Shown here: piece by piece, positions 17,428 through 57,085 of the stretch
Layout: each line of letters starts with the position of its first letter
Numbering within the stretch: the first letter of the stretch is position 1
Assembly (NCBI RefSeq): GCF_001682385.1
Contig: NZ_CP016210.1
Span: 1,798,001-1,862,000 of the forward strand
Direction of reading: 5' to 3'
Length of the DNA: 64,000 nucleotides
DNA from: Azoarcus olearius
GTDB lineage: Bacteria; Pseudomonadota; Gammaproteobacteria; Burkholderiales; Rhodocyclaceae
Notes under the pieces: generated by a model
Database searches by the model: none
What the model was told of the DNA's origin: nothing
The model's input: only the letters and a program-made list of their open reading frames with translations
Translations under genes and position numbers: made by a program

Positions 17428-17534
17428 CCGCGTTGGCGCGCTCCTTGCTCGGGTATCTGGCCACGCGGCCGAACCATCGCTGTGCGCGTCACTCTGATGA
17501 TCTAAACCCGACAAAAGCTGCGATCCCCTACCCG

Positions 17535-39997: not shown

Positions 39998-40831
39998 TCA
40001 GCCGCAGGCGACGATCCAGCCTTCCAGCGGGTCGAAGCCGGCCGGCAACCCGTACAGCGGCGCACCGGCGTGCAAGGCCCACGCGGCCTGCACCAGCGCC
40101 AGCGTCGCGTCCAGACAATCTCCGCTCGCATCGGCCAGCAGTTGGGTCCGCAGCGACGCATCCGCAACGAGCCGCAGGCGCAGCGGATGTCCGCCGGCTT
40201 CGAGCGCCTCCACGATCGTTTGCCGTGCCGCCGCCCGCGCCTCGGTCTGCTTGCGCCGTTCGTCGCTCTTGTACGGAGCGCGCGTGATGCCGCGTGCGAG
40301 CGCGCCGGGATAGGCCTCCATCGCCACCCGCTGCGGGTCCGCGAGGTGCATGCCGGGCAACGTGACGCCCGCGTCGAGCAGGCGTGGCGCGCCTTCGAGG
40401 AACATCAGCCCCACCGGCGGATTGACCAGCTTGAGCGGGCTATGTGACCCGGCCGGACCATCGGCCGCGCGGTGGGCATAGCGGCGGCCGGGCGGCCGGC
40501 TCTCGCGGTAGGCGTCGAGTGCGCTGCGGAAAGCGTCGCGTCCGCTCCGCCGGCAATGTTCCACCAGCGCTGGCCACGCGGTGGGCCAGCCGAGGTCCAG
40601 CACTGCCTCACGCGGCAAGCCGAAGGGGAGATCGAACGCGCCCAGCCAGGGGCCCGGTCGGGTCAGGATGGCTTCGAACGCGCGCCAGTCAGCGCAGCGT
40701 TCGAGGGCGAGCAAGGCCACCTCGTTGCCGACGGCGTGTCCGCGCGCAATCACGATCGGCTTGTGCGCGCGCGGTGCCGACGTGAAGTCCACGCCGTAAA
40801 GCGTCCAGTCTGATGGCGAGCCTGCGCTCAT
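39998..40831 (-). CDS. DUF429 family protein (RNase H-like fold)
   Basis: A 277-residue protein starting MSAGSPSDWTLYGVDFTSAPRAHKPIVIARG, the DUF429 opening with an acidic residue after the first strand (GVDFTSAP). Later segments GAFDLPFGLPRE near 64, KLVNPPVGLMFLEGAPRLL near 133 and SGDCLDATLALVQAAWA near 237 fit the family. DUF429 members are predicted nuclease- or RNase H-like proteins with no proven function. It overlaps the HDAC-like gene by 4 bp and is the last gene of the five-gene unit. Confidence 0.8.
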   Translation of the reverse strand: MSAGSPSDWTLYGVDFTSAPRAHKPIVIARGHAVGNEVALLALERCADWRAFEAILTRPGPWLGAFDLPFGLPREAVLDLGWPTAWPALVEHCRRSGRDAFRSALDAYRESRPPGRRYAHRAADGPAGSHSPLKLVNPPVGLMFLEGAPRLLDAGVTLPGMHLADPQRVAMEAYPGALARGITRAPYKSDERRKQTEARAAARQTIVEALEAGGHPLRLRLVADASLRTQLLADASGDCLDATLALVQAAWALHAGAPLYGLPAGFDPLEGWIVACG

Positions 40832-41745
40832 CGCACGCCGGCTGGGCGGTGGAAAAGGCCTGCGGCGGTGAGGACGGTGCGGTAGTGGATGTCCACCGTA
40901 TCGTCGATCTCGCTGGCGTACCCGCCGGCCATCGCAATGGCGACGGGCAGGCCGCTGGCGTGGCAGCGTGCAAGGACGCGCCGGTCGCGTTCCGCCAGGC
41001 CCTGTTTGCTCAGCGCAAGTCGGCCAAGGCGGTCGCCGGCGTAGGGGTCCGCCCCCGCGAGGTAGATCAGCAGTTGCGGGCGGAACTCGCTGAACACGCG
41101 CTCGAGCGCGTTGTCGAGCGCCGCCAGGTAAGGCTCGTCGCCCGTGTCGTCGGGGAGTTCGACGTCGAGATCGCTGCGCGCCTTGCGGAACGGAAAATTC
41201 TTGGCGCCGTGCAGGCTGCAGGTGAATACCTCGGGTACGCCGGCGAGGATGGCGGCGGTGCCGTCGCCCTGATGCACGTCGCAATCGACAACCGCGACGC
41301 GTTGCACCCGGCCTTCGGCACGCATCGCCAGTGCGGCCACCGCGGCGTCGTTGAACACGCAGAAGCCGGAGCCGAATTCGCGATGGGCGTGGTGGGTGCC
41401 ACCCGCCAGATTGATCCCGCAGCCTTCGTCGAGCGCGCTGCGGCAGGCGGCAAGCGTCGCGCCGGCGGAGCGGCGCGAGCGTTCGACCATGGCTTCCGAC
41501 CACGGAAAGCCGATGCGGCGGATCTCGTCCGCCGCGAGTTCGCCTTGCGCCACGCGTGCCACATAGGCCGGATCGTGGGCGCGGGCGAGTTCGGCGTCGG
41601 TGGCGGCCGCGGGCTCACGCAGGTCGCCGTCGCCAAACACGCCGCTGGCGACGAGCCGCGCCCGCAGCCGGCTGTACTTTTCCATCGGGAAGCGGTGGCC
41701 CGGCGGCAGCGGCAGGACGAAATGGTCGGCGTAGTACAGCTTCAC
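40828..41745 (-). CDS. Histone deacetylase-fold amidohydrolase (acetylpolyamine amidohydrolase/AcuC type)
   Basis: A 305-residue zinc hydrolase of the arginase/deacetylase fold. The charge-relay pair is His118-His119 (GGTHHAHREFGSGFCVFND). Zinc ligands Asp156 and His158 (VVDCDVHQGDGTA) and Asp233 (AGADPYAGDRLG) are all present, so it should be active. Bacterial members remove acetyl or related acyl groups from polyamines, lysines or small amides. It sits 37 bp after the second transglutaminase, suggesting a product or substrate of that operon as its target. Substrate not known. Confidence 0.9.
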   Translation of the reverse strand: MKLYYADHFVLPLPPGHRFPMEKYSRLRARLVASGVFGDGDLREPAAATDAELARAHDPAYVARVAQGELAADEIRRIGFPWSEAMVERSRRSAGATLAACRSALDEGCGINLAGGTHHAHREFGSGFCVFNDAAVAALAMRAEGRVQRVAVVDCDVHQGDGTAAILAGVPEVFTCSLHGAKNFPFRKARSDLDVELPDDTGDEPYLAALDNALERVFSEFRPQLLIYLAGADPYAGDRLGRLALSKQGLAERDRRVLARCHASGLPVAIAMAGGYASEIDDTVDIHYRTVLTAAGLFHRPAGVR

Positions 41746-41782
41746 GAATGCAGCCCGGAGGGCGGCCGGCGTGCCGGCCGCG

Positions 41783-42763
41783 TCACTCGATCAGCGGCGC
41801 CAGCACGGCTTCGCTGTCGCCATACACCGCCGCGAGTTCGCCCTCGGGCACCATGGTCACCGCGATCTTGGGCTCGTGGCCGCCGCCGCCCAGCAGCACG
41901 CCGCGCAAGGGCGAGACGTCGGCGAAATCGCGCCCCCAGCCGATCGTGACGTGTTCGAGCGCGGGCATCAGCGCATTGGTGGGGTCGAAGTCCACCCAGC
42001 CGTGCCGCGGGCAGTACACCGCGATCCAGGCGTGTGTGGCATCGGCGCCGATCAGCCGCGGCTTGCCGGCCGGCGGCCGGGTCAGGATGTAGCCGCTCAC
42101 GTAGCGCGCGGCCAGACCGAGCGAACGCAGGCAGGACAGCATGAAGTGGGCGTAGTCCTGGCAGACGCCGCGGCGTTTTTCGAACACCTCGGTGACCGGC
42201 GTCGACACGTCGGTGGCCTCGGGGTCGAAGGTGAATTCGTCGAAGATGCGCCGCATCAGACCGTTGACGGCCGCCAGCAGCGGCACGCCGGGCTTGAAGT
42301 CGGCCCCGGCATAGTCGGCGAAGTCGCGTTTGACGCGGACATGGCTCGATTCGAACAGGTAGCCTGCGGCGTCGAGTTCCGCCGGGTCGTTACGCCGCCC
42401 CGCGCGATAGGCGAGGCCGTCGCGCACGGCTTCCCAGGGTGGCGATTCGGCGGCCACCACCGGCGGGCGCAGCGCGAGACACACCCAGCTTTCGGCGCGG
42501 ATGAAGAGTTCCTCGTGGTCGCGTTCGAAATGCAGCGACTGCACCGCGTTGCCGAAACCGTCGATGAACTGCTGACGGCGGGCGGGTTCGGGGTGGACGT
42601 CGATGCGGTGGGTGAGGCAGCGCTGCCACGGCAACTCGCGCGGCGTCAGGCGCAGCAACTGGCGCGACTCGCCCACCGGCTGGTCGTAGGCGTAAAGCGT
42701 GTCGTGCCGGATGTGGTAGCGGACCGCGGCCGCCATCGGCGCGCTGGGCGGGAGCAGGGTCAT
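41783..42763 (-). CDS. Transglutaminase-like cysteine protease-fold protein (small, 326 aa)
   Basis: A 326-residue protein. An N-terminal bacterial transglutaminase-like domain (RYHIRHDTLYAYDQPVGESRQ) leads into a catalytic core with Cys201 (RRGVCQDYAH), His244 (ATHAWIAVY) and Asp260 (GWVDFDPTN), a complete triad. Such proteins act as proteases, amidases or crosslinkers; no signal peptide is seen, so it should be cytosolic. The start at 42763 follows GAGGGTGG; the open frame further upstream overlaps the ATP-grasp gene. It lies 61 bp after the ATP-grasp/Alpha-E gene. Confidence 0.88.
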   Translation of the reverse strand: MTLLPPSAPMAAAVRYHIRHDTLYAYDQPVGESRQLLRLTPRELPWQRCLTHRIDVHPEPARRQQFIDGFGNAVQSLHFERDHEELFIRAESWVCLALRPPVVAAESPPWEAVRDGLAYRAGRRNDPAELDAAGYLFESSHVRVKRDFADYAGADFKPGVPLLAAVNGLMRRIFDEFTFDPEATDVSTPVTEVFEKRRGVCQDYAHFMLSCLRSLGLAARYVSGYILTRPPAGKPRLIGADATHAWIAVYCPRHGWVDFDPTNALMPALEHVTIGWGRDFADVSPLRGVLLGGGGHEPKIAVTMVPEGELAAVYGDSEAVLAPLIE

Positions 42764-42824
42764 GGCGCCACCCTCAGGCCATCGCCGCGGCGGGGGCCGG
42801 GCACGGGCGTCCAGGCGCGCGCGT

Positions 42825-45311
42825 TCATGCCACCCTCCGCAGGTGCATCGGCCGCACCGTGTGGGTGAAGAAGCGGCGATGGACCTCGTCCGACAGGTTG
42901 CCGGCCGCCTCCAGCGCATCGTTGAGCAGCGTGCGCAGGGTGCGGATCGCGAGTTCGCAGTCCTCGGCCTCGAAGCGGGTGAGGTCGAAGTCTTCGAGGC
43001 GGCGGGCGAGCGGGTCGATCATCAGCGAAGGGTAGGGGTGGCCGAGTTCGCGCGCCGTGCGGGCCAGATAGCGTTGCAGGATTTCCACCTGGAAGCCCAC
43101 CGCGTGCGGGTTGGCGGTGTCGAACACCAGCAGGTGCACCACCGGCAGCAGCTCGGGCACGCGGCGGTAGCGGGCGCGGTAGGTGACGATGGAGTTGGCG
43201 ACTTCCAGCATCCACTCGAACATGCGCTCGCGCGCTTCGGCCGGCGCCTCCATCGGCACCGAGATCAGGCCCGACAGGCCCGCCATGCGTTCGATGCGGC
43301 GGCCGAGGATGAGGAAGCGCCAGCCTTCGTCGCGCGTCATGTCGTCCATCGCGTAACCCGCGAGCGCGATGCAGGACTGCATCACGCGGTCCAGCGCCGA
43401 CAGCGCCTGGTCGGTGGTCTGCACCGGCTCGGAGAGCTGCTGTTCGAGCCGGTTGAGCGCGTGCCAGTTGTCGGACGACAGGCGCTCGCGCACCTGGCTG
43501 GCGGAAAACGCGAGTGCGCGCAGGTTGGCTGCGACCGAACCGGGCTGGGTGGGGTCAGTGAGCGCGGCGACCAGTTCGTCTTCGAGCGCCACCGGCTCCT
43601 CGTCCTCATCCTCGCGCTCGGCGGACAGCACGCCCAGTCGGCGCGCCGCCAGCACCAGACCGGCGAGACTTTGCTCCGTTTCCGGGTCGGTACTGGCCAC
43701 GCGCGTCAGCGCCGCGCGCAGCATGCGTGCGCTGGCTTCGCAGCGTTCGGCGTAGCGCCCCATCCAGAACAGGTTTTCGCCGACGCGCGAGGGGATGTCC
43801 GAGCCGCCGCACACCAGGTCGATCACGCCGAGCCGGCGCTTGAGCAGCGAGGTGCGCACCACCGGCGCCTCGGCCCGCACCCAGGTGTCCTTGGACAGGC
43901 CGCCGCGCTGCATCGAGATGACTTCCATGCCGGGGCGGGGCGCGACGCGGCCGAGCGCGCCGGGCATGACGGTGTAGCCCTCGGGCGTGGCGGTGGCGAA
44001 CACCCGCATGCCCATCGAGCGCGGGGTCAGGCGGTGATTCCACACGGGTGCCTGCGACAGCCGCACCCATTCCTGCGCCACGTAGGCGTGGGGCTGCTTG
44101 AGGATGCGCTCGATCATGGTCTTGCGCGCCTCGCCCTTCAGCTGGTGGCCGAACACCGCCTCCATCCGCATGCTGGGGAAGGCCGGCTTGATGACGAGTT
44201 CGTCGAGGTGTTCGAGCACGTATTCCAGCGCCGGGGGTTCGCCGCACCACCAGCTCGCCACCGAGGGCATGGCCAGCGGCTCGCCGAGCAGGCGTTCGCA
44301 GATGGCCGGCAGGAAGCCGAAGATCGCGCCGGATTCGAGCACCCCGCTGCCGATCGCGTTGGCCATCAGCACGCGCCCGGCCCGGATGGCGCCGAGCAGG
44401 CCGGGGATGCCGAGCGCGGAGTCGGCGCGCAGCTCGAGCGGATCGCAGAAGTCGTCGTCGAGCCGGCGCAGGATGGCATGCACCCGGCGCAGGCCGCGCA
44501 GCGTCTTGAGATAGACAGTGTCGTCGCGCACGGTGAGATCCTGCCCCTCGACCAGCGGAAAGCCGAGGTAGCGGGCGAGGAAGGCGTGCTCGAAATAGGT
44601 TTCGTTGTACGGGCCGGGCGTCAGCAGCACGGTGAGCGGCACGTCGCCGTCGGCCGGTGCGAGGCGGGCGAGGCCGTCCTGCATCGCGCGGAAGAAGCTG
44701 GCCAGCGGCTGCACGTGCAGCTCACGGAAGGCATCCGGAAACGCGCGCGAGACGATGATGCGGTTCTGCAGCGCATAGCCTGCGCCCGAGGGGCCCTGGG
44801 TGCGGTCGGCGATCACCCAGAAGCGGCCGTCCGGCGCCCGGGCGAGGTCGGCACCGTAGCTGAACAGCCATACGTTGCCGGGCGGCACCGTGCCGCGCGC
44901 GGGCCACTTGAAACCATGCTGGCCGAACACCAGCGCGGGTGGCAGCAGGCCTTCGGCGAGCAGGGTCTGCGGCCCGTAGAGATCGGCCAGGATGGCGTTG
45001 AGCAGGCGCGCGCGCTGGCTGATCGCCCCGGCTATGCCCTTCCACTCGTCGGCGCTCACCAGCAGCGGCAGCATGTCGAGCTCCCACGGGCGCTTGGTGC
45101 CCTTGGGGTCGGCATAGACGTTGTAGGTGACGCCGTCCGATTCGATGGCGTCGCGGACGAACTCGGCGCGGCGCTTCAGGACGTCGTCGGGAGCGTGCTC
45201 GAGCCGCTCGGCGAATGCCTGCCAGTGCGGGCGCGCGTCGCCGCGCGTGGCAAGCATCTCGTCGTAGCGGTCTGCGATGAGCGGATAGGTGGCGATGAGG
45301 CTTGCGGGCAT
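42825..45311 (-). CDS. Fused circularly permuted ATP-grasp / Alpha-E domain protein
   Basis: An 828-residue fusion. Residues about 1-475 form a circularly permuted ATP-grasp domain (YADPKGTKRPWELDMLPLL, WVIADRTQGPSGAGYALQNR, LTPGPYNETYFEHAFLARYLG, VIKPAFPSMRMEAVFG). Residues about 495-820 form an all-helical Alpha-E domain (SRVGENLFWMGRYAERCEASARML, RFLILGRRIERMAGL). In many genomes these are two neighbouring genes. ATP-grasp enzymes of this group are predicted amide or peptide ligases; the Alpha-E partner has no proven activity. It sits between the two transglutaminases, 49 and 61 bp from them. Confidence 0.9.
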   Translation of the reverse strand: MPASLIATYPLIADRYDEMLATRGDARPHWQAFAERLEHAPDDVLKRRAEFVRDAIESDGVTYNVYADPKGTKRPWELDMLPLLVSADEWKGIAGAISQRARLLNAILADLYGPQTLLAEGLLPPALVFGQHGFKWPARGTVPPGNVWLFSYGADLARAPDGRFWVIADRTQGPSGAGYALQNRIIVSRAFPDAFRELHVQPLASFFRAMQDGLARLAPADGDVPLTVLLTPGPYNETYFEHAFLARYLGFPLVEGQDLTVRDDTVYLKTLRGLRRVHAILRRLDDDFCDPLELRADSALGIPGLLGAIRAGRVLMANAIGSGVLESGAIFGFLPAICERLLGEPLAMPSVASWWCGEPPALEYVLEHLDELVIKPAFPSMRMEAVFGHQLKGEARKTMIERILKQPHAYVAQEWVRLSQAPVWNHRLTPRSMGMRVFATATPEGYTVMPGALGRVAPRPGMEVISMQRGGLSKDTWVRAEAPVVRTSLLKRRLGVIDLVCGGSDIPSRVGENLFWMGRYAERCEASARMLRAALTRVASTDPETEQSLAGLVLAARRLGVLSAEREDEDEEPVALEDELVAALTDPTQPGSVAANLRALAFSASQVRERLSSDNWHALNRLEQQLSEPVQTTDQALSALDRVMQSCIALAGYAMDDMTRDEGWRFLILGRRIERMAGLSGLISVPMEAPAEARERMFEWMLEVANSIVTYRARYRRVPELLPVVHLLVFDTANPHAVGFQVEILQRYLARTARELGHPYPSLMIDPLARRLEDFDLTRFEAEDCELAIRTLRTLLNDALEAAGNLSDEVHRRFFTHTVRPMHLRRVA

Positions 45312-45360
45312 GATCGCAAGAAAACGGCGCCGCGTCCGGGGACCGGGCGCGGCGCGCGGG

Positions 45361-48300
45361 TTAGTAGTGGCGCAAGTCTAACGTGAATGGGAACTCCGGG
45401 TTGATGCGGGCTTCCCCGACCTCCATCCGCCCCGGTGTGTGGCCCATGCGGAAGTAGCGCGCCATGCGACGGCTCTCCGCTTCGAAGGCGTTGACCGGGA
45501 AGGTGTCGTAGTTGCGCCCGCCCGGATGGGCGACGTGGTATTGGCAGCCGCCCAGGCTGCGCTGGTTCCAGGTATCGACGATGTCGAAGGTGAGCGGGCC
45601 GTCGGTGCCGATGGTGGGGTGCAGGCAGGAAGCGGGCTGCCACGCGCGGTAGCGCACGCCGGCGACGAACTCGCCCACGGTGCCGGTGGGCTGCAGCGGC
45701 ACCGGCACGCCGTTGCAGGTGACGGTGTAGCGGTCGGGCGCGGCGCCGTTGAGCTTGACCTGGATACGTTCGAGCGACGAGTCCACATAGCGCACGGTGC
45801 CGCCGATCGCGCCTTCCTCGCCCATCACGTGCCAGGGCTCCAGCGCCGCGCGCAGTTCGAGCTGCATGCCCTTGACCGCGAAGTCACCATACTTGGGGAA
45901 GCGGAACTCGAGGTGCGACGCGAACCACTCCGGCTGGATCGGATAGCCGTCGGCCTGCAGGTCGCCGATGACGTCGCTGAAGTCCTGCCAGACGAAATGC
46001 GGCAGCAGGAAGCGGTCGTGCAGTTCGGTGCCCCAGCGCACCAGCTTGGGCGGGGTGTAGGGGTCTTTCCAGAAGCGGGCGACCAGTGTGCGCAGCAGCA
46101 GCTGCTGGGTCAGGCTCATGCGCGCATGCGGCGGCATTTCGAACGCGCGCATCTCCAGCAGGCCGAGACGGCCGGTGGGGCCGTCGGGCGAGTACAGCTT
46201 GTCGATGCAGAACTCGGCGCGGTGGGTGTTGCCGGTAACGTCGATCAGCAGGTTGCGCAACAGCCGGTCGACCATCCACGGCGGGCAGCCGTTGGGGCCG
46301 GACTGGCACACGCGGTCCATCTCGCGGAAGGCGAGTTCGATCTCCGGCACCGAGTCGTTGCGCGCTTCGTCGATGCGCGGCGCCTGCGAGGTCGGCCCGA
46401 TGAACATGCCGGAGAAGAGGTAGGACAGGCTGGGGTGGTTGTTCCAGTAGCTCACCAGACTGCGCAGCAGGTCGGGCCGGCGCAGGAAGGGCGAGTCGGC
46501 CGGGGTTGCGCCGCCGAGCACGAAGTGGTTGCCCCCGCCGGTGCCGGTGTGGCGGCCGTCGAGCATGAACTTCTCGGTGGTGAGGCGCGAGTAGTGGGCC
46601 GATTCGTACAGGTGGGTGGTCTGGTCGACCAGCTCGTCCCAGTTCGACGCCGGGTGGATGTTCACCTCGATCACGCCCGGGTCGGGGGTGATGCGGAAGT
46701 GCGACAGGCGCGGGTCGCGCGGCGGCTCGTAGCCTTCGAGCATCACCGGGTGGTTGAGGCTTTCGGCGGTGGCTTCGACGGCGGCGGCGATCTCCAGGTA
46801 GTCCTCCAGCGTGGCGACCGGCGGCATGAACACGTACAGCGTACCGTTGCGCGCCTCGGCGCACATCGCGGTGCGGGTGATCCAGCCGGCCGATTGCTTG
46901 CCCTGCGGCTTGCGATCGGTGATTTCGGCCTGGCTGCGGGCCTTGCCGTTGCTGTTGCCGTCTTCGCCGCCGCTGCCCGGCATGCCGCCGGCCGCGGGGC
47001 GCAGGGTTGCAAAGCCGCTTGCGGGGCCGAACTGCTGGCGGATTGCGGCATGCGTCGGAAGCGGCTTGAAGCGCTCGAACGGGTCGGGCTGGTGGATCCA
47101 GGGGTAATCCCCCGGCGTGGCCCACGGCTGGGAATCGAGCGGCAGGCGGTAGCCGAGCGGCGAGTCGCCGGGAATCAGGTAGCACCGTTCGCTGCGGAGG
47201 AACCACGGCCCGGTCTGCCAGGCGTCGTTGGCCGGGTTGCGAGCGATCGGCAGCACGTGGCCGGCGATCTTGGTGAGCCCCTGGCTATAGACCTTCATGA
47301 GCCGCTCGCGCTCGAGCGGATCGTCCAGGCGCGAGTCGAAGGGATCGACGTTGGCCGGCAGGCGGCGTTCGCGCCACAGGTAGTAGAAGACGTCTTCATA
47401 CGCCGGAAAGACGTATTGCGCGTCCAGCCCGAGGCGATCGGCGATGCCGCGCAGGAAGCGGCCCGCGATGATGTCGGTTGCTCCGCCCGGGCGCGATTCG
47501 TCGGCGATCAGATCGCGGCGGGTCCACATCGGCTCGCCATCCTTGCGCCAGAAGCAGTTGAGCGACCAGCGCGGCAGCTGTTCGCCCGGATACCACTTGC
47601 CCTGACCGTAATGCACCAGCCCCTGCGGGCCGTACTTGGCCGCAAGGCGGTCGTACAGGTCGGAGGCCAGCCGCTTCTTGTTGGGCCCCATCGCGGTGGT
47701 GTTCCACTCGGCGCCGTCCGGATCGTCCACCGACACGAAGGTGGGTTCGCCGCCTTGCGTGAGGCGGACGTCGTGCTCCGCGAGTTCGGCGTCGATCGCG
47801 TGGCCGAGGCGTTCGATCTCGCTCCACTGCGCCTCGGTATAGGGTTTGGTGACGCGCGGCGCTTCCCAGATGCGGGTGACCTTCATCGCGTGTTCGAACG
47901 CCACCTCGCACTTGTCCAGCGCGCCGGTAACCGGGGCGGCGGAGTAGGGGTCGGGCGTGCACGCCAAGGGAATGTGGCCTTCGCCGGCGAAGAGCCCCGA
48001 GGTGGGGTCCAGTCCGATCCAGCCCGCGCCGGGCAGGTAGACCTCGCACCAGGCGTGCAGGTCGGTGAAGTCCTTCTCCGGGCCGGAGGGGCCGTCGAGC
48101 GATTTGACGTCGGGCGTGAGCTGGATCAGGTAGCCCGACACGAAGCGGGCCGCCAGACCGAGGTGACGCAGCAGCTGCACCAGCAGCCAGGCCGAGTCGC
48201 GGCAGGAACCGGAACGCTTTTCCAGCGTCTCTTCCGGGGTCTGCACGCCGGGTTCCATCCGGATCGTGTATTCGATGTGCTTGAACAGCTCGGCGTTGAG

Positions 48301-48741
48301 ATCGACGAGGAAGTTCACGCTCTGGCGCTTCTCGCGCTCGATGCCGTTGAGGTATTCCGCGAAACGCGGGGTCAGCGGCAGCTTCTTGAAATAGGGCGAC
48401 AGCTCGTCGCGCTGCCACGATTCGTATTCGAAGGGGATGTGCTCGGCATGGGGTTCGAGGAAGAAGTCGAACGGGTTGATCACCGCCATCTCGGCGACCA
48501 GGTCCACCTCGATGCGGAACTCCTTCGTCTTTTCCGGGAAGACGAGGCGCGCGAGATAGTTGGACTGGGGGTCCTGCTGCCAGTTGATGAAGTGGGTGGC
48601 GGGCAGCACGCGCAGCGAGTACGACAGGATGCGGGAGCGGCTGTGCGGCGCAGGGCGCAGCCGGATCACCTGCGGTCCGAGGTTGATCGGGCGGTCGTAC
48701 GTGTAGGTGGTGACGTGATTCAGCGCCACATGGATGGACAT
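45361..48741 (-). CDS. Giant transglutaminase-like protein with DUF2126 domain
   Basis: A 1126-residue cytosolic-looking protein. The N-terminal bacterial transglutaminase-like beta domain (about 1-90) precedes a core with Cys180 ([11 protein letters not shown]), His229 (DLHAWCEVY) and Asp245 ([10 protein letters not shown]), a complete triad. The remaining 800 residues are a DUF2126 region ([20 protein letters not shown] near 340, [18 protein letters not shown] near 395, [20 protein letters not shown] near 755). A Gly/Ser-rich linker lies near 590-610. This region resembles glutamate-cysteine-ligase or amidoligase-like catalysis in published predictions, but no reaction is proven. First gene of the unit, with ribosome site AAGGAA and a sigma-54-like promoter upstream. 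Confidence 0.9.
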
Positions 48742-48779
48742 GAACGGATTCCTTCTTCGAGCTGTTTGAAAGTCGGCTC

Positions 48780-48795
48780 AGCAAGTCTTGCGCCA
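48780..48795 (-). promoter_or_regulatory. Candidate sigma-54 promoter of the transglutaminase/ATP-grasp operon
   Basis: Reading leftward the site is TGGCGCAAGACTTGCT. It keeps TGGC, C at position 6, TTGC, the final W and the exact GG-N10-GC spacing; positions 5 and 7 differ from consensus. The predicted transcript start is about 28 nt before the first ATG. A TGCACC half-site at 48836-48841 resembles an NtrC half-site but lacks a good partner. No better sigma-70 promoter is visible in the 248-bp spacer. Confidence 0.55.
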
Positions 48796-48989
48796 AGCGC
48801 GATAGGCCATCTGCCGGGGCCAGCGGGCGTATTCATGCACCCTAATCGGGCGCGCCCTGTTTTGGGGCGCACTGTTTTCGTACGGTTCTCGCACCGGGGA
48901 GCGGGCGGCGCACAGTCCTTCGGGTCCTGTACTACACTCGGCCGTTCCCGCCGTCCGTCTTCCGCCGCCTTTCCGGCCTGGGTGCAACC

Positions 48990-50159
48990 ATGAGCATCAT
49001 CGACATCGTCAGTCCGCGTCTTTACAACCTGAAGGCGATCCGCCGCGACCTTCACGCCCATCCGGAACTCGCCTTCGCCGAACACCGCACTGCCGACGTC
49101 GTCGCCCGCCACCTGACGTCGCTCGGGCTGGAGGTGCATCGCGGCCTTGGCGGCACCGGCGTGGTCGGCGTCGTGCGCGGTGGCCGCGGCCTGCGTGCGA
49201 TCGGCCTGCGCGCGGACATGGACGCGCTGCCGATTACCGAGCGTAACACCTTCGCCCACCGCTCCACTGTGGAGGCCTGCATGCATGCCTGCGGGCATGA
49301 CGGCCACACGACGATGCTGCTCGGCGCTGCCGAGGTCCTGGCCGCGCGGCCGGATTTCGACGGCACGGTGTACCTGATCTTCCAGCCTGCCGAAGAGGGT
49401 GAGGGCGGCGCGCGGGCGATGATCGAGGACGGCCTGTTCGACCGTTTTCCGATGGAGTCGGTATTCGGCATGCACAACTGGCCCGGCATGGCGGCCGGCA
49501 GCTTTGCGGTGCACGCCGGGCCGGTGATGGCGAGCGCAGACCGCTTCGACATCACGGTCCGCGGCCATGGCGCCCACGCCGCGATGCCGCACCTGGGCAC
49601 CGACCCGGTGACCGCGGCCGCGGCGCTGGTGCAGGCGGTGCAGACCATCGTCTCGCGCAACCTCGACCCGGTGGTGTCGGCGGTGGTGTCCATCACCCAG
49701 TTCCATGCGGGCGAGGCCTACAACGCCATTCCCGACCGCGCCGAGCTGGCCGGCACCGTGCGGGCCTTCTCGGAACAGGTGCAGGAGGCGGTGGAAGCGC
49801 GCCTGCGCACGCTGTGCGAGGGCACCGCGGCGGCATTCGGCGTGGAGGTCGAATTCGAATACCGGCGCGGCTATCCGCCGACGGTCAACACCGCCGCCGA
49901 GGCCGCGCTGTGCGCCGACGCCGCGCGGGCGGTGGCGGGGGAAAGCGCGGTGACTACCGCCGCGCCACCCAGCATGGGGGCAGAGGACTTCGCCTTCTTC
50001 CTGCAGAAGAAGCCGGGCGCCTATATCTGGATCGGCAACGGCCCGGGCGAGGGCGGCTGCACGCTGCACAACCCGCATTACGACTTCAACGACGACATCC
50101 TGCCGGCGGGCATCGGCTATTGGGTGGAGCTGGTGCGGCGTCTGCTGCCGGCGCGCTGA
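48990..50159 (+). CDS. M20 family amidohydrolase (hippurate/IAA-amino acid hydrolase type)
   Basis: A 389-residue M20D metal hydrolase. Metal-site motifs seen are LRADMDALPITE near 72, HACGHDGHTTMLLGAAE near 97, QPAEEGEGGARAMI near 130 and GMHNWPG near 160. The dimerisation insert (GHGAHAAMPHLGTDPVTAA) follows, and a final His is in LHNPHYDFNDD near 365. The family cleaves N-acyl amino acids such as hippurate. It is divergent from the transglutaminase operon across 248 bp and 9 bp upstream of the FtsX-type permease gene. Substrate not assignable. Confidence 0.92.
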   Translation: MSIIDIVSPRLYNLKAIRRDLHAHPELAFAEHRTADVVARHLTSLGLEVHRGLGGTGVVGVVRGGRGLRAIGLRADMDALPITERNTFAHRSTVEACMHACGHDGHTTMLLGAAEVLAARPDFDGTVYLIFQPAEEGEGGARAMIEDGLFDRFPMESVFGMHNWPGMAAGSFAVHAGPVMASADRFDITVRGHGAHAAMPHLGTDPVTAAAALVQAVQTIVSRNLDPVVSAVVSITQFHAGEAYNAIPDRAELAGTVRAFSEQVQEAVEARLRTLCEGTAAAFGVEVEFEYRRGYPPTVNTAAEAALCADAARAVAGESAVTTAAPPSMGAEDFAFFLQKKPGAYIWIGNGPGEGGCTLHNPHYDFNDDILPAGIGYWVELVRRLLPAR

Positions 50160-56868: not shown

Positions 56869-56944
56869 TGGCTCCCCGACCTGGGCTCGAACCAGGGACC
56901 TACGGATTAACAGTCCGGCGCTCTACCGACTGAGCTATCGGGGA
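56869..56944 (-). tRNA. tRNA-Asn (anticodon GTT), copy 2 in the transcript
   Basis: A 76-nt cloverleaf with encoded CCA. The acceptor stem is TCCCCGA / TCGGGGA, the D-arm has GCTCAGTCGGTAGAGC, the anticodon loop is CTGTTAATCC with GTT, and the T-arm is CTGGTTCGAGCCCAG. It differs from the other copy only at acceptor pair 4:69 (C-G here). Confidence 0.98.
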
Positions 56945-57009
56945 ATAAAACGTGTTGGTGCTTCTTGTACTGCAGATGCCCGCAACCGGAGGTTTCGTGC
57001 ATCGAATTT

Positions 57010-57085
57010 TGGCTCCTCGACCTGGGCTCGAACCAGGGACCTACGGATTAACAGTCCGGCGCTCTACCGACTGAGCTATCGAGGA
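57010..57085 (-). tRNA. tRNA-Asn (anticodon GTT), copy 1 in the transcript
   Basis: A 76-nt cloverleaf with encoded CCA. The body is identical to the copy at 56869 except for acceptor pair 4:69, which is T-A (TCCTCGA / TCGAGGA). It is nearest the promoter and separated from the second copy by 65 nt. Confidence 0.98.

Follow-up and report, generated by a model that had tools for sequence, protein, structure and literature searches.

A probable nitrogen-starvation amidoligase cluster of Azoarcus olearius with a predicted pseudo-ATP-grasp subunit and, in its lineage, HDAC11-like and DUF429-like genes behind it

Gene clusters combining DUF2126, circularly permuted ATP-grasp (CP-ATP-grasp), Alpha-E and transglutaminase families were reportedly predicted to be amidoligase systems by Iyer et al. 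in 2009. The same families make up the first three of five genes that run together on the minus strand of a 64,000-nucleotide stretch of the Azoarcus olearius genome (contig NZ_CP016210.1, positions 1,798,001 to 1,862,000; hereafter the window, from whose first nucleotide positions are counted). This locus differs from the predicted amidoligase clusters in having an HDAC11-like and a DUF429-like gene behind the core and an intact ATP-grasp/Alpha-E pair at another locus. With somewhat better than even confidence, we read genes 1-3 as a nitrogen-starvation amidoligase unit with a dead ATP-grasp subunit, and the HDAC11-like and DUF429-like genes as lineage-specific downstream additions. New here are a sigma54-type site before gene 1, the loss of the E-x-N pair in the fused ATP-grasp, and an HDAC11 gene of clade-A-like type in this setting.

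Clusters of the type of genes 1-3 have been termed a predicted peptide synthesis or modification system in one report that touches on them (PMC3597751). Genes I35_5080-83 of Burkholderia cenocepacia likewise encode DUF404/407 (ATP-grasp), DUF403 (Alpha-E), transglutaminase-like and large transglutaminase-like proteins, although, unlike the present locus, no HDAC or DUF429 gene is named with them as far as that account of the genes goes (PMC5491218). The Anbu operons have in common with it the ATP-grasp, Alpha-E and transglutaminase families and a link to nitrogen starvation, according to the sections of the Anbu reports that describe them (PMC5666114, PMC6376114), but no Anbu gene was found near the loci studied here. 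The rlo operon of Pseudomonas aeruginosa also contains ATP-grasp and transglutaminase-fold genes but is, as portrayed in the relevant part of its description, a different system, with a membrane-bound inactive transglutaminase, a secreted aspartic peptidase and a RimK-like ATP-grasp (PMC12239564).

The coordinates of the five genes given in a preliminary description of this DNA were reproduced, with gaps of +49, +61, +37 and -4 bp across the four junctions from gene 1 to gene 5. The features are:

45361..48741, minus strand: gene 1, an N-terminal transglutaminase-like domain (Cys180, His229, Asp245) fused to DUF2126 (in Pfam a putative amidoligase), 1126 residues
42825..45311, minus strand: gene 2, a fusion of circularly permuted ATP-grasp and Alpha-E, 828 residues; predicted pseudo-ATP-grasp
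41783..42763, minus strand: gene 3, Bact_transglu_N and transglutaminase core (Cys201, His244, Asp260), 326 residues
40828..41745, minus strand: gene 4, an HDAC-fold hydrolase of clade-A-like class IV (HDAC11) type, 305 residues, GTG start
39998..40831, minus strand: gene 5, a divergent DUF429-like protein, 277 residues; ATGA overlap with gene 4
48780..48795, minus strand: promoter-like site of sigma54 type, TGGCGCAAGACTTGCT, roughly 50 bp ahead of where gene 1 starts
48836..48841, minus strand: GGTGCA, an NtrC half-site-like block within the conserved upstream region
48990..50159, plus strand: M20-family amidohydrolase, a flanking gene divergent from gene 1 whose synteny extends to relatives; the system is not taken to include it

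In the mechanism that we propose, phosphorylated NtrC and the sigma54 RNA polymerase would transcribe the operon from 48795-48780 when nitrogen is short. The intact standalone ATP-grasp would make amide bonds on an amino-acid or peptide substrate, as probably would the DUF2126 domain; the two transglutaminase-fold enzymes may cut or transfer acyl groups on that substrate, and the fused ATP-grasp/Alpha-E protein would act as a partner or scaffold. Genes 4 and 5 probably share the transcript here but are given no step on the product.

Pfam assigns Bact_transglu_N, Transglut_core and DUF2126 to gene 1, CP_ATPgrasp and Alpha-E to gene 2, Bact_transglu_N and Transglut_core to gene 3, and Hist_deacetyl to gene 4, and a scan of all five proteins against NCBIfam returned zero matches. 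The transglutaminase-DUF2126 fusion, ATP-grasp, Alpha-E and the Bact_transglu_N transglutaminase all stand side by side, and genes 1-3 are the known transglutaminase/DUF2126/CP-ATP-grasp/Alpha-E amidoligase cluster. The earlier proposal of a cytosolic cluster for amide or peptide modification is supported by the gene families and by the literature on relatives. The cluster is widespread, and the literature searched, in which no paper treating DUF2126 and transglutaminase together was found, gives no established chemistry for it. The triad of gene 1 is conserved among 35 homologues (Cys in 34, the remaining match being unaligned there; His and Asp in all 35), and that of gene 3 is kept in 34/34.

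The core also holds together beyond the window. In a sample of 150 genomes from the order, DUF2126 is present in 50 and is accompanied by an Alpha-E gene in 50/50. Genomes with the fused Alpha-E, a form recognised in this sample by its lower Alpha-E score in a frame of at least 770 residues (the frame in genome G144 is shorter), have a second Alpha-E match in 27/27 cases and DUF2126 in 26/27. Among 20 cores from the family that are not linked to an HDAC gene, the 1-2-3 order is intact at 17; at the other three, DUF2126 is not accompanied by genes 2 and 3 within the 19 kb fetched, and gene 2 lies elsewhere in the genome. Standalone ATP-grasp and Alpha-E genes both fall within the stretch at 9 of these 20, and the ATP-grasp alone at one more. 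At locus L143 (genome G182), gene 2, gene 3, the standalone ATP-grasp and Alpha-E adjoin one another, and a DUF2126 gene was not found.

The ATP-grasp domain of gene 2 differs from the standalone copies at the active site. In ATP-grasp enzymes the Mg ligands sit in E-x-N. Both the Glu and the Asn of this pair are lost in 34/34 fused homologues (at least 40% identical to the window protein), the Glu position being occupied by Ala in 26, Gly in 4, His in 2, Asn in 1 and Asp in 1, and the Asn position by Arg in 32 and His in 2; a first comparison with other cut-offs (35 fused and 10 standalone sequences) found the loss in 35/35 fused copies. The Gly-rich loop is also largely gone, although row L128 still has two glycines. 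Standalone copies, in contrast, keep E-D-N, the lysine and GGYG in 11/11. The preliminary description had taken every catalytic residue of the operon, ATP-grasp motifs included, to be intact; this stands for both Cys-His-Asp triads and for the HDAC site, but fails for the fused ATP-grasp, since E-x-N is absent from it. With its canonical ATP/Mg site lost, the fused ATP-grasp is, judging from the alignment, probably dead, and we infer that the fused protein is most likely a partner or scaffold. The catalytic residues absent from this copy, the cluster's own, are found in the window genome in an intact ATP-grasp/Alpha-E pair (locus L004, 1741.3-1743.7 kb) roughly 100 kb away from the operon; the standalone ATP-grasp (L004 7312-8730), not the fused one, is the protein to purify. 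An alpha/beta-hydrolase-like gene (assigned by eye; L004 6012-7130) precedes the intact pair.

It is unlikely that the fused ATP-grasp instead still works as a ligase with a different set of metal ligands. Its lysine is kept in 33/34 homologues and the middle aspartate in 34/34, and many positions are common to the fused and standalone forms, as an active enzyme would lead one to expect. These residues have to be set against the uniform disappearance of the Glu and Asn and the decay of the GGYG loop, against the loss of the lysine too in a distant relative that is 41% identical (L183), and against the second Alpha-E match that always accompanies the fused form in the order sample.

Nitrogen control is proposed in part from the regions upstream of the core. 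Twelve of these, all from window-type cores, were aligned (11 HDAC-linked loci plus L129, which has a core without an HDAC link; L020 was read separately), and at a mean column identity of 39% they keep TGG, and TTGCT nine columns on, in 12/12. The strict sigma54-like pattern TGG[CT][AG][CT]N5[CT]TGC[AT] occurs in 11/12 distinct HDAC-linked core upstream regions against 0.6% of random 223-nucleotide stretches, a count that is partly circular because the pattern was fixed after the alignment had been viewed; the twelfth region (L020) has a looser GG-N10-GC site, TGGCCTGCTCCTTGCT, at -51 or -52. NtrC-type palindromes are present in 12/33 upstream regions of gene 1 against 2.2% of random ones (3/12 among those that are core-linked). 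Standalone ATP-grasp genes have one or the other motif upstream in 8/11 cases, against 2.8% of random stretches, and the intact pair at L004 is preceded by an NtrC-type palindrome. Either motif precedes gene 2 in 0/31 cases, gene 3 in 1/15 and gene 5 in 3/17. A related strict pattern has 2 matches in the window against 0.27 expected, and 1/100 shuffles reaches 2.

Expression data on relatives point the same way. The excerpted results for B. cenocepacia H111 report I35_5080-83 as 6.0- to 9.4-fold down in an ntrC mutant and dependent on NtrC and sigma54 (PMC5491218), and passages on Pseudomonas putida report PP_2685 and PP_2688 as up on nitrate (PMC8050072) and PP2685-2687 as up under nitrogen limitation (PMC3325844). 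By motif and by analogy, the cluster is probably under NtrC and sigma54 control, and its product is best sought under nitrogen limitation.

Gene 4 encodes an enzyme that resembles clade A of the class IV deacetylases. Its best match in the PDB is 9rje (E 4.2e-74, 253 bits), followed by 9gkv (E 1.6e-66) and 9gz5 (E 2.4e-44, 156 bits), the last having its sequence in common with 9rjd. According to the part of the HDAC11 study concerned with these structures, 9RJE is a class IV clade A enzyme (chrHDAC11-1/A) and 9RJD, from Leptospira, belongs to clade B; the clade A enzymes tested there had no peptide deacylase activity, and small-molecule substrates are suspected (PMC13325672). In a set of 149 distinct sequences preselected at 36% identity or more, the window protein included, the metal and catalytic residues (Zn ligands, catalytic His, Tyr) are kept in 149/149. 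The window protein has the clade A marks R18 (loop 1 Pro to Arg), G79 (Glu94 to Gly), the gatekeeper T117 and the foot-pocket R89, and among the 149 the loop 1 Arg is found in 142, the Gly in 148, the gatekeeper in 141 (Thr in 128, Ser in 13) and the foot-pocket Arg in 149. It departs from clade A in its setting behind an amidoligase core and in the foot pocket, where the Glu is replaced by Ser93 (Ser in 121 and Glu in 5 of the 149); we therefore describe gene 4 as clade-A-like, short of assigning it to clade A.

The affiliation of gene 5 is more distant. The preliminary description named it DUF429; the window protein has no Pfam match even at E 10, whereas 4 of 14 aligned homologues match PF04250 (DUF429; best E 7.1e-8), and the label survives as a weak one. 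A sequence-profile search of the PDB with gene 5 found nothing credible. In its AlphaFold model (mean predicted local distance difference test score, pLDDT, 77) the order of elements, read by eye, is strand-strand-strand-helix-strand, which is compatible with an RNase H-like fold; an invariant Asp15 lies in the first strand and an invariant Asp67 ends the fourth. The relevant portion of a published account counts DUF429 among the RNase H-like superfamily and assigns the likely active-site residues to strands 1 and 4 (PMC3985635).

Whether genes 4 and 5 belong to the system was judged from their neighbourhoods. The competing explanation is a true five-gene pathway, in which the HDAC-fold enzyme deacylates the ligase product and the DUF429-like protein takes part too; we regard it as likewise unlikely, although the reported inactivity of clade A enzymes on peptides, with small molecules suspected (PMC13325672, in the part cited above), is a point in its favour. 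The order sample has a clearly orthologous HDAC gene in 37 genomes (in pieces in one) and gene 5 in 30. HDAC and DUF2126 occur together in 16, HDAC and gene 5 in 18, and in both comparisons, made on positions by eye, the two are adjacent in the window genome only; since many of the assemblies are split into numerous contigs, genes counted as not adjacent either lie on separate contigs or are a long way from each other. Co-occurrence itself favours the pathway, gene 5 being found in 18/37 genomes with the HDAC gene and 12/113 without it (p 3e-6, uncorrected for phylogeny), but the separation of HDAC and DUF2126 in 15 of the 16 genomes, and the adjacency of HDAC and gene 5 in just 1 of the 18, speak against it. 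The earlier picture of one conserved system that includes HDAC and DUF429 steps is not supported by this comparison, in which the single adjacent case is the window genome itself.

The family sample of 121 genomes presents a different picture: HDAC is found in 39, DUF2126 in 66, both in 35 (35/39 with HDAC against 31/82 without; Fisher p 5e-8, uncorrected for phylogeny), and the two are linked in 13, in several genera. The neighbourhood comparison suggested earlier is thus negative at the level of the order and positive in part of the family (13/35 genomes). The gap between genes 3 and 4 is at most 41 bp in 10 of these linked genomes, but in the other three it is 419-1788 bp, and gene 5 lies 725-4375 bp behind gene 4 in four. 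We examined the stretches around all 39 family HDAC genes (in G249 the contig stops at the HDAC gene, on the side where a core would lie, so that none could have been seen there), and a gene 5 homologue is present in 10/13 linked against 6/26 unlinked stretches. On a gene 4 tree built by a quick method the linked rows cluster, requiring 6 changes against a shuffled mean of 11.3, with 1/500 shuffles as low. The linkage also follows the subtype of the core. Window-type cores (gene 2 at least 65% identical) occur in 17 genomes, of which 13 are linked and G178 is unlinked, while in G235 the 2.8 kb covered ahead of the HDAC gene contains no core and G182 and G238 have no HDAC match; family cores of the other subtype (gene 2 at most 60% over its length) were never seen linked, which again counts against a pathway.

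Farther out, the core stands beside the HDAC gene in 2 of the best 80 named loci among 564 confirmed HDAC relatives, both apparently from sampled family genomes; within these best 80, the named gene 4 relatives in the family come from Thauera, Azoarcus-like bacteria and Zoogloea. A sample of 398 genomes from the phylum has 90 with an HDAC match, 76 of them outside the order, and we examined 37 of these 76 neighbourhoods, about one per genus, with flanks of about 6 kb (one shorter). In one of the 37, the distant genome G409, core and HDAC gene are 5.4 kb apart; this recurrence is a point for a pathway, and the other genes between them are a point against. Where genes were called crudely in this work, as homology-scored open reading frames, the calls served for neighbour finding only. 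Moreover, HDAC genes unlinked to a core lack the promoter motif (sigma54 pattern in 1/129, either motif in 6/129), and in Burkholderiaceae-type loci the HDAC gene has other neighbours (phasin, EamA, thioesterase, nitroreductase). A conserved five-gene unit across betaproteobacteria was rejected from the neighbourhoods at order, family and phylum level; the linkage of the HDAC gene to the core is real but local.

The flank of the operon bears on how the arrangement arose. The M20 gene adjoins gene 1 in 12/13 linked stretches (the thirteenth begins inside gene 1) and is thus syntenic as well, a point against the five-gene pathway, though no part of the system is claimed for it; FtsX lies beyond M20 in 10/13. 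Shared ancestry of a single region accounts for some of this synteny. In four core-less family loci M20 abuts the HDAC gene, the distance being 88-138 bp in these and in four named loci (one on the same contig), and in a Thauera metagenome-assembled genome M20 is 2.9 kb from the HDAC gene; it follows that where M20 and HDAC are neighbours, the core is either exactly between them or missing. Across 34-54 kb, the GC content per kb stays within 0.64-0.73 and does not jump at the core.

Several of these results weigh against an amidoligase unit under nitrogen control with lineage-specific additions behind it. Beside the circularity of the promoter count, the strict sigma54 pattern is found in just 2/21 upstream regions of unlinked DUF2126 genes (9/21 have an NtrC palindrome), no full NtrC palindrome was found before gene 1 of the window, and the window has a second strict sigma54-like match at 17434-17449 (+). 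A profile search of the PDB with DUF2126 gave 16 matches, none credible (best E 0.076), and its structure model is useless (mean pLDDT 31); DUF2126 is probably a ligase on its Pfam label and earlier literature. The co-occurrence of HDAC and DUF2126 in the family and the tight spacing of genes 3 and 4 in most linked genomes point to some coupling of the HDAC gene. Finally, M20 abuts HDAC in only 4/26 core-less family loci, so that an older M20-HDAC neighbourhood was not general in the family, which slightly weakens the argument that genes behind the core are passengers.

A further possibility, which we consider quite unlikely, is that the clade-A-like HDAC11 takes what the core makes as its substrate, this being a small acylated amine or amide and not a protein, and that a dead ATP-grasp/Alpha-E subunit controls the true ligase elsewhere. 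Were it true, the core would offer a first way in to what clade A HDAC11 enzymes act on in nature, and this lineage would have placed an HDAC gene inside an NtrC-type operon. The local link suggests a small metabolite set to test and is itself weak evidence; a role of the HDAC gene with the core is a candidate worth testing. An Anbu-type protein-tagging and proteolysis system is very improbable and was rejected: nitrogen starvation does induce Anbu operons, and these include the ATP-grasp, Alpha-E and transglutaminase families, but published Anbu had no peptidase activity in the assays described in the sections drawn on (PMC5666114, PMC6376114), and no proteasome-fold gene lies near either locus, the genome's two PF00227 matches being at 455 kb and 2936 kb, far from the loci at 1.74 and 1.84 Mb.

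Some further observations concern the neighbours of these genes. The weak proteasome-family match L185 (G000:C1:2936195-2936737; E 1.8e-5) is in a 456-residue frame. Behind the HDAC gene in several family genomes there is an NYN plus OST-HTH/LOTUS gene (L022 8186-8935, Pfam on the L022 copy), usually between the HDAC and DUF429-like genes (cluster 21 in L010, L015, L019, L020, L021 and L106). In Burkholderiaceae-type loci (L059, L066, L069, L071 and others) the HDAC gene is often divergent from a phasin gene, with EamA, thioesterase, nitroreductase or S11 carboxypeptidase genes behind it (Pfam, one representative each), a neighbourhood that may be a clue to HDAC function. In the window, the sigma54-like site at 17434-17449 (+) precedes a frame that by eye resembles a SelO-type protein, and two tRNA-Asn(gtt) genes, with 65 bp between them, lie at 56869-57085 on the minus strand.

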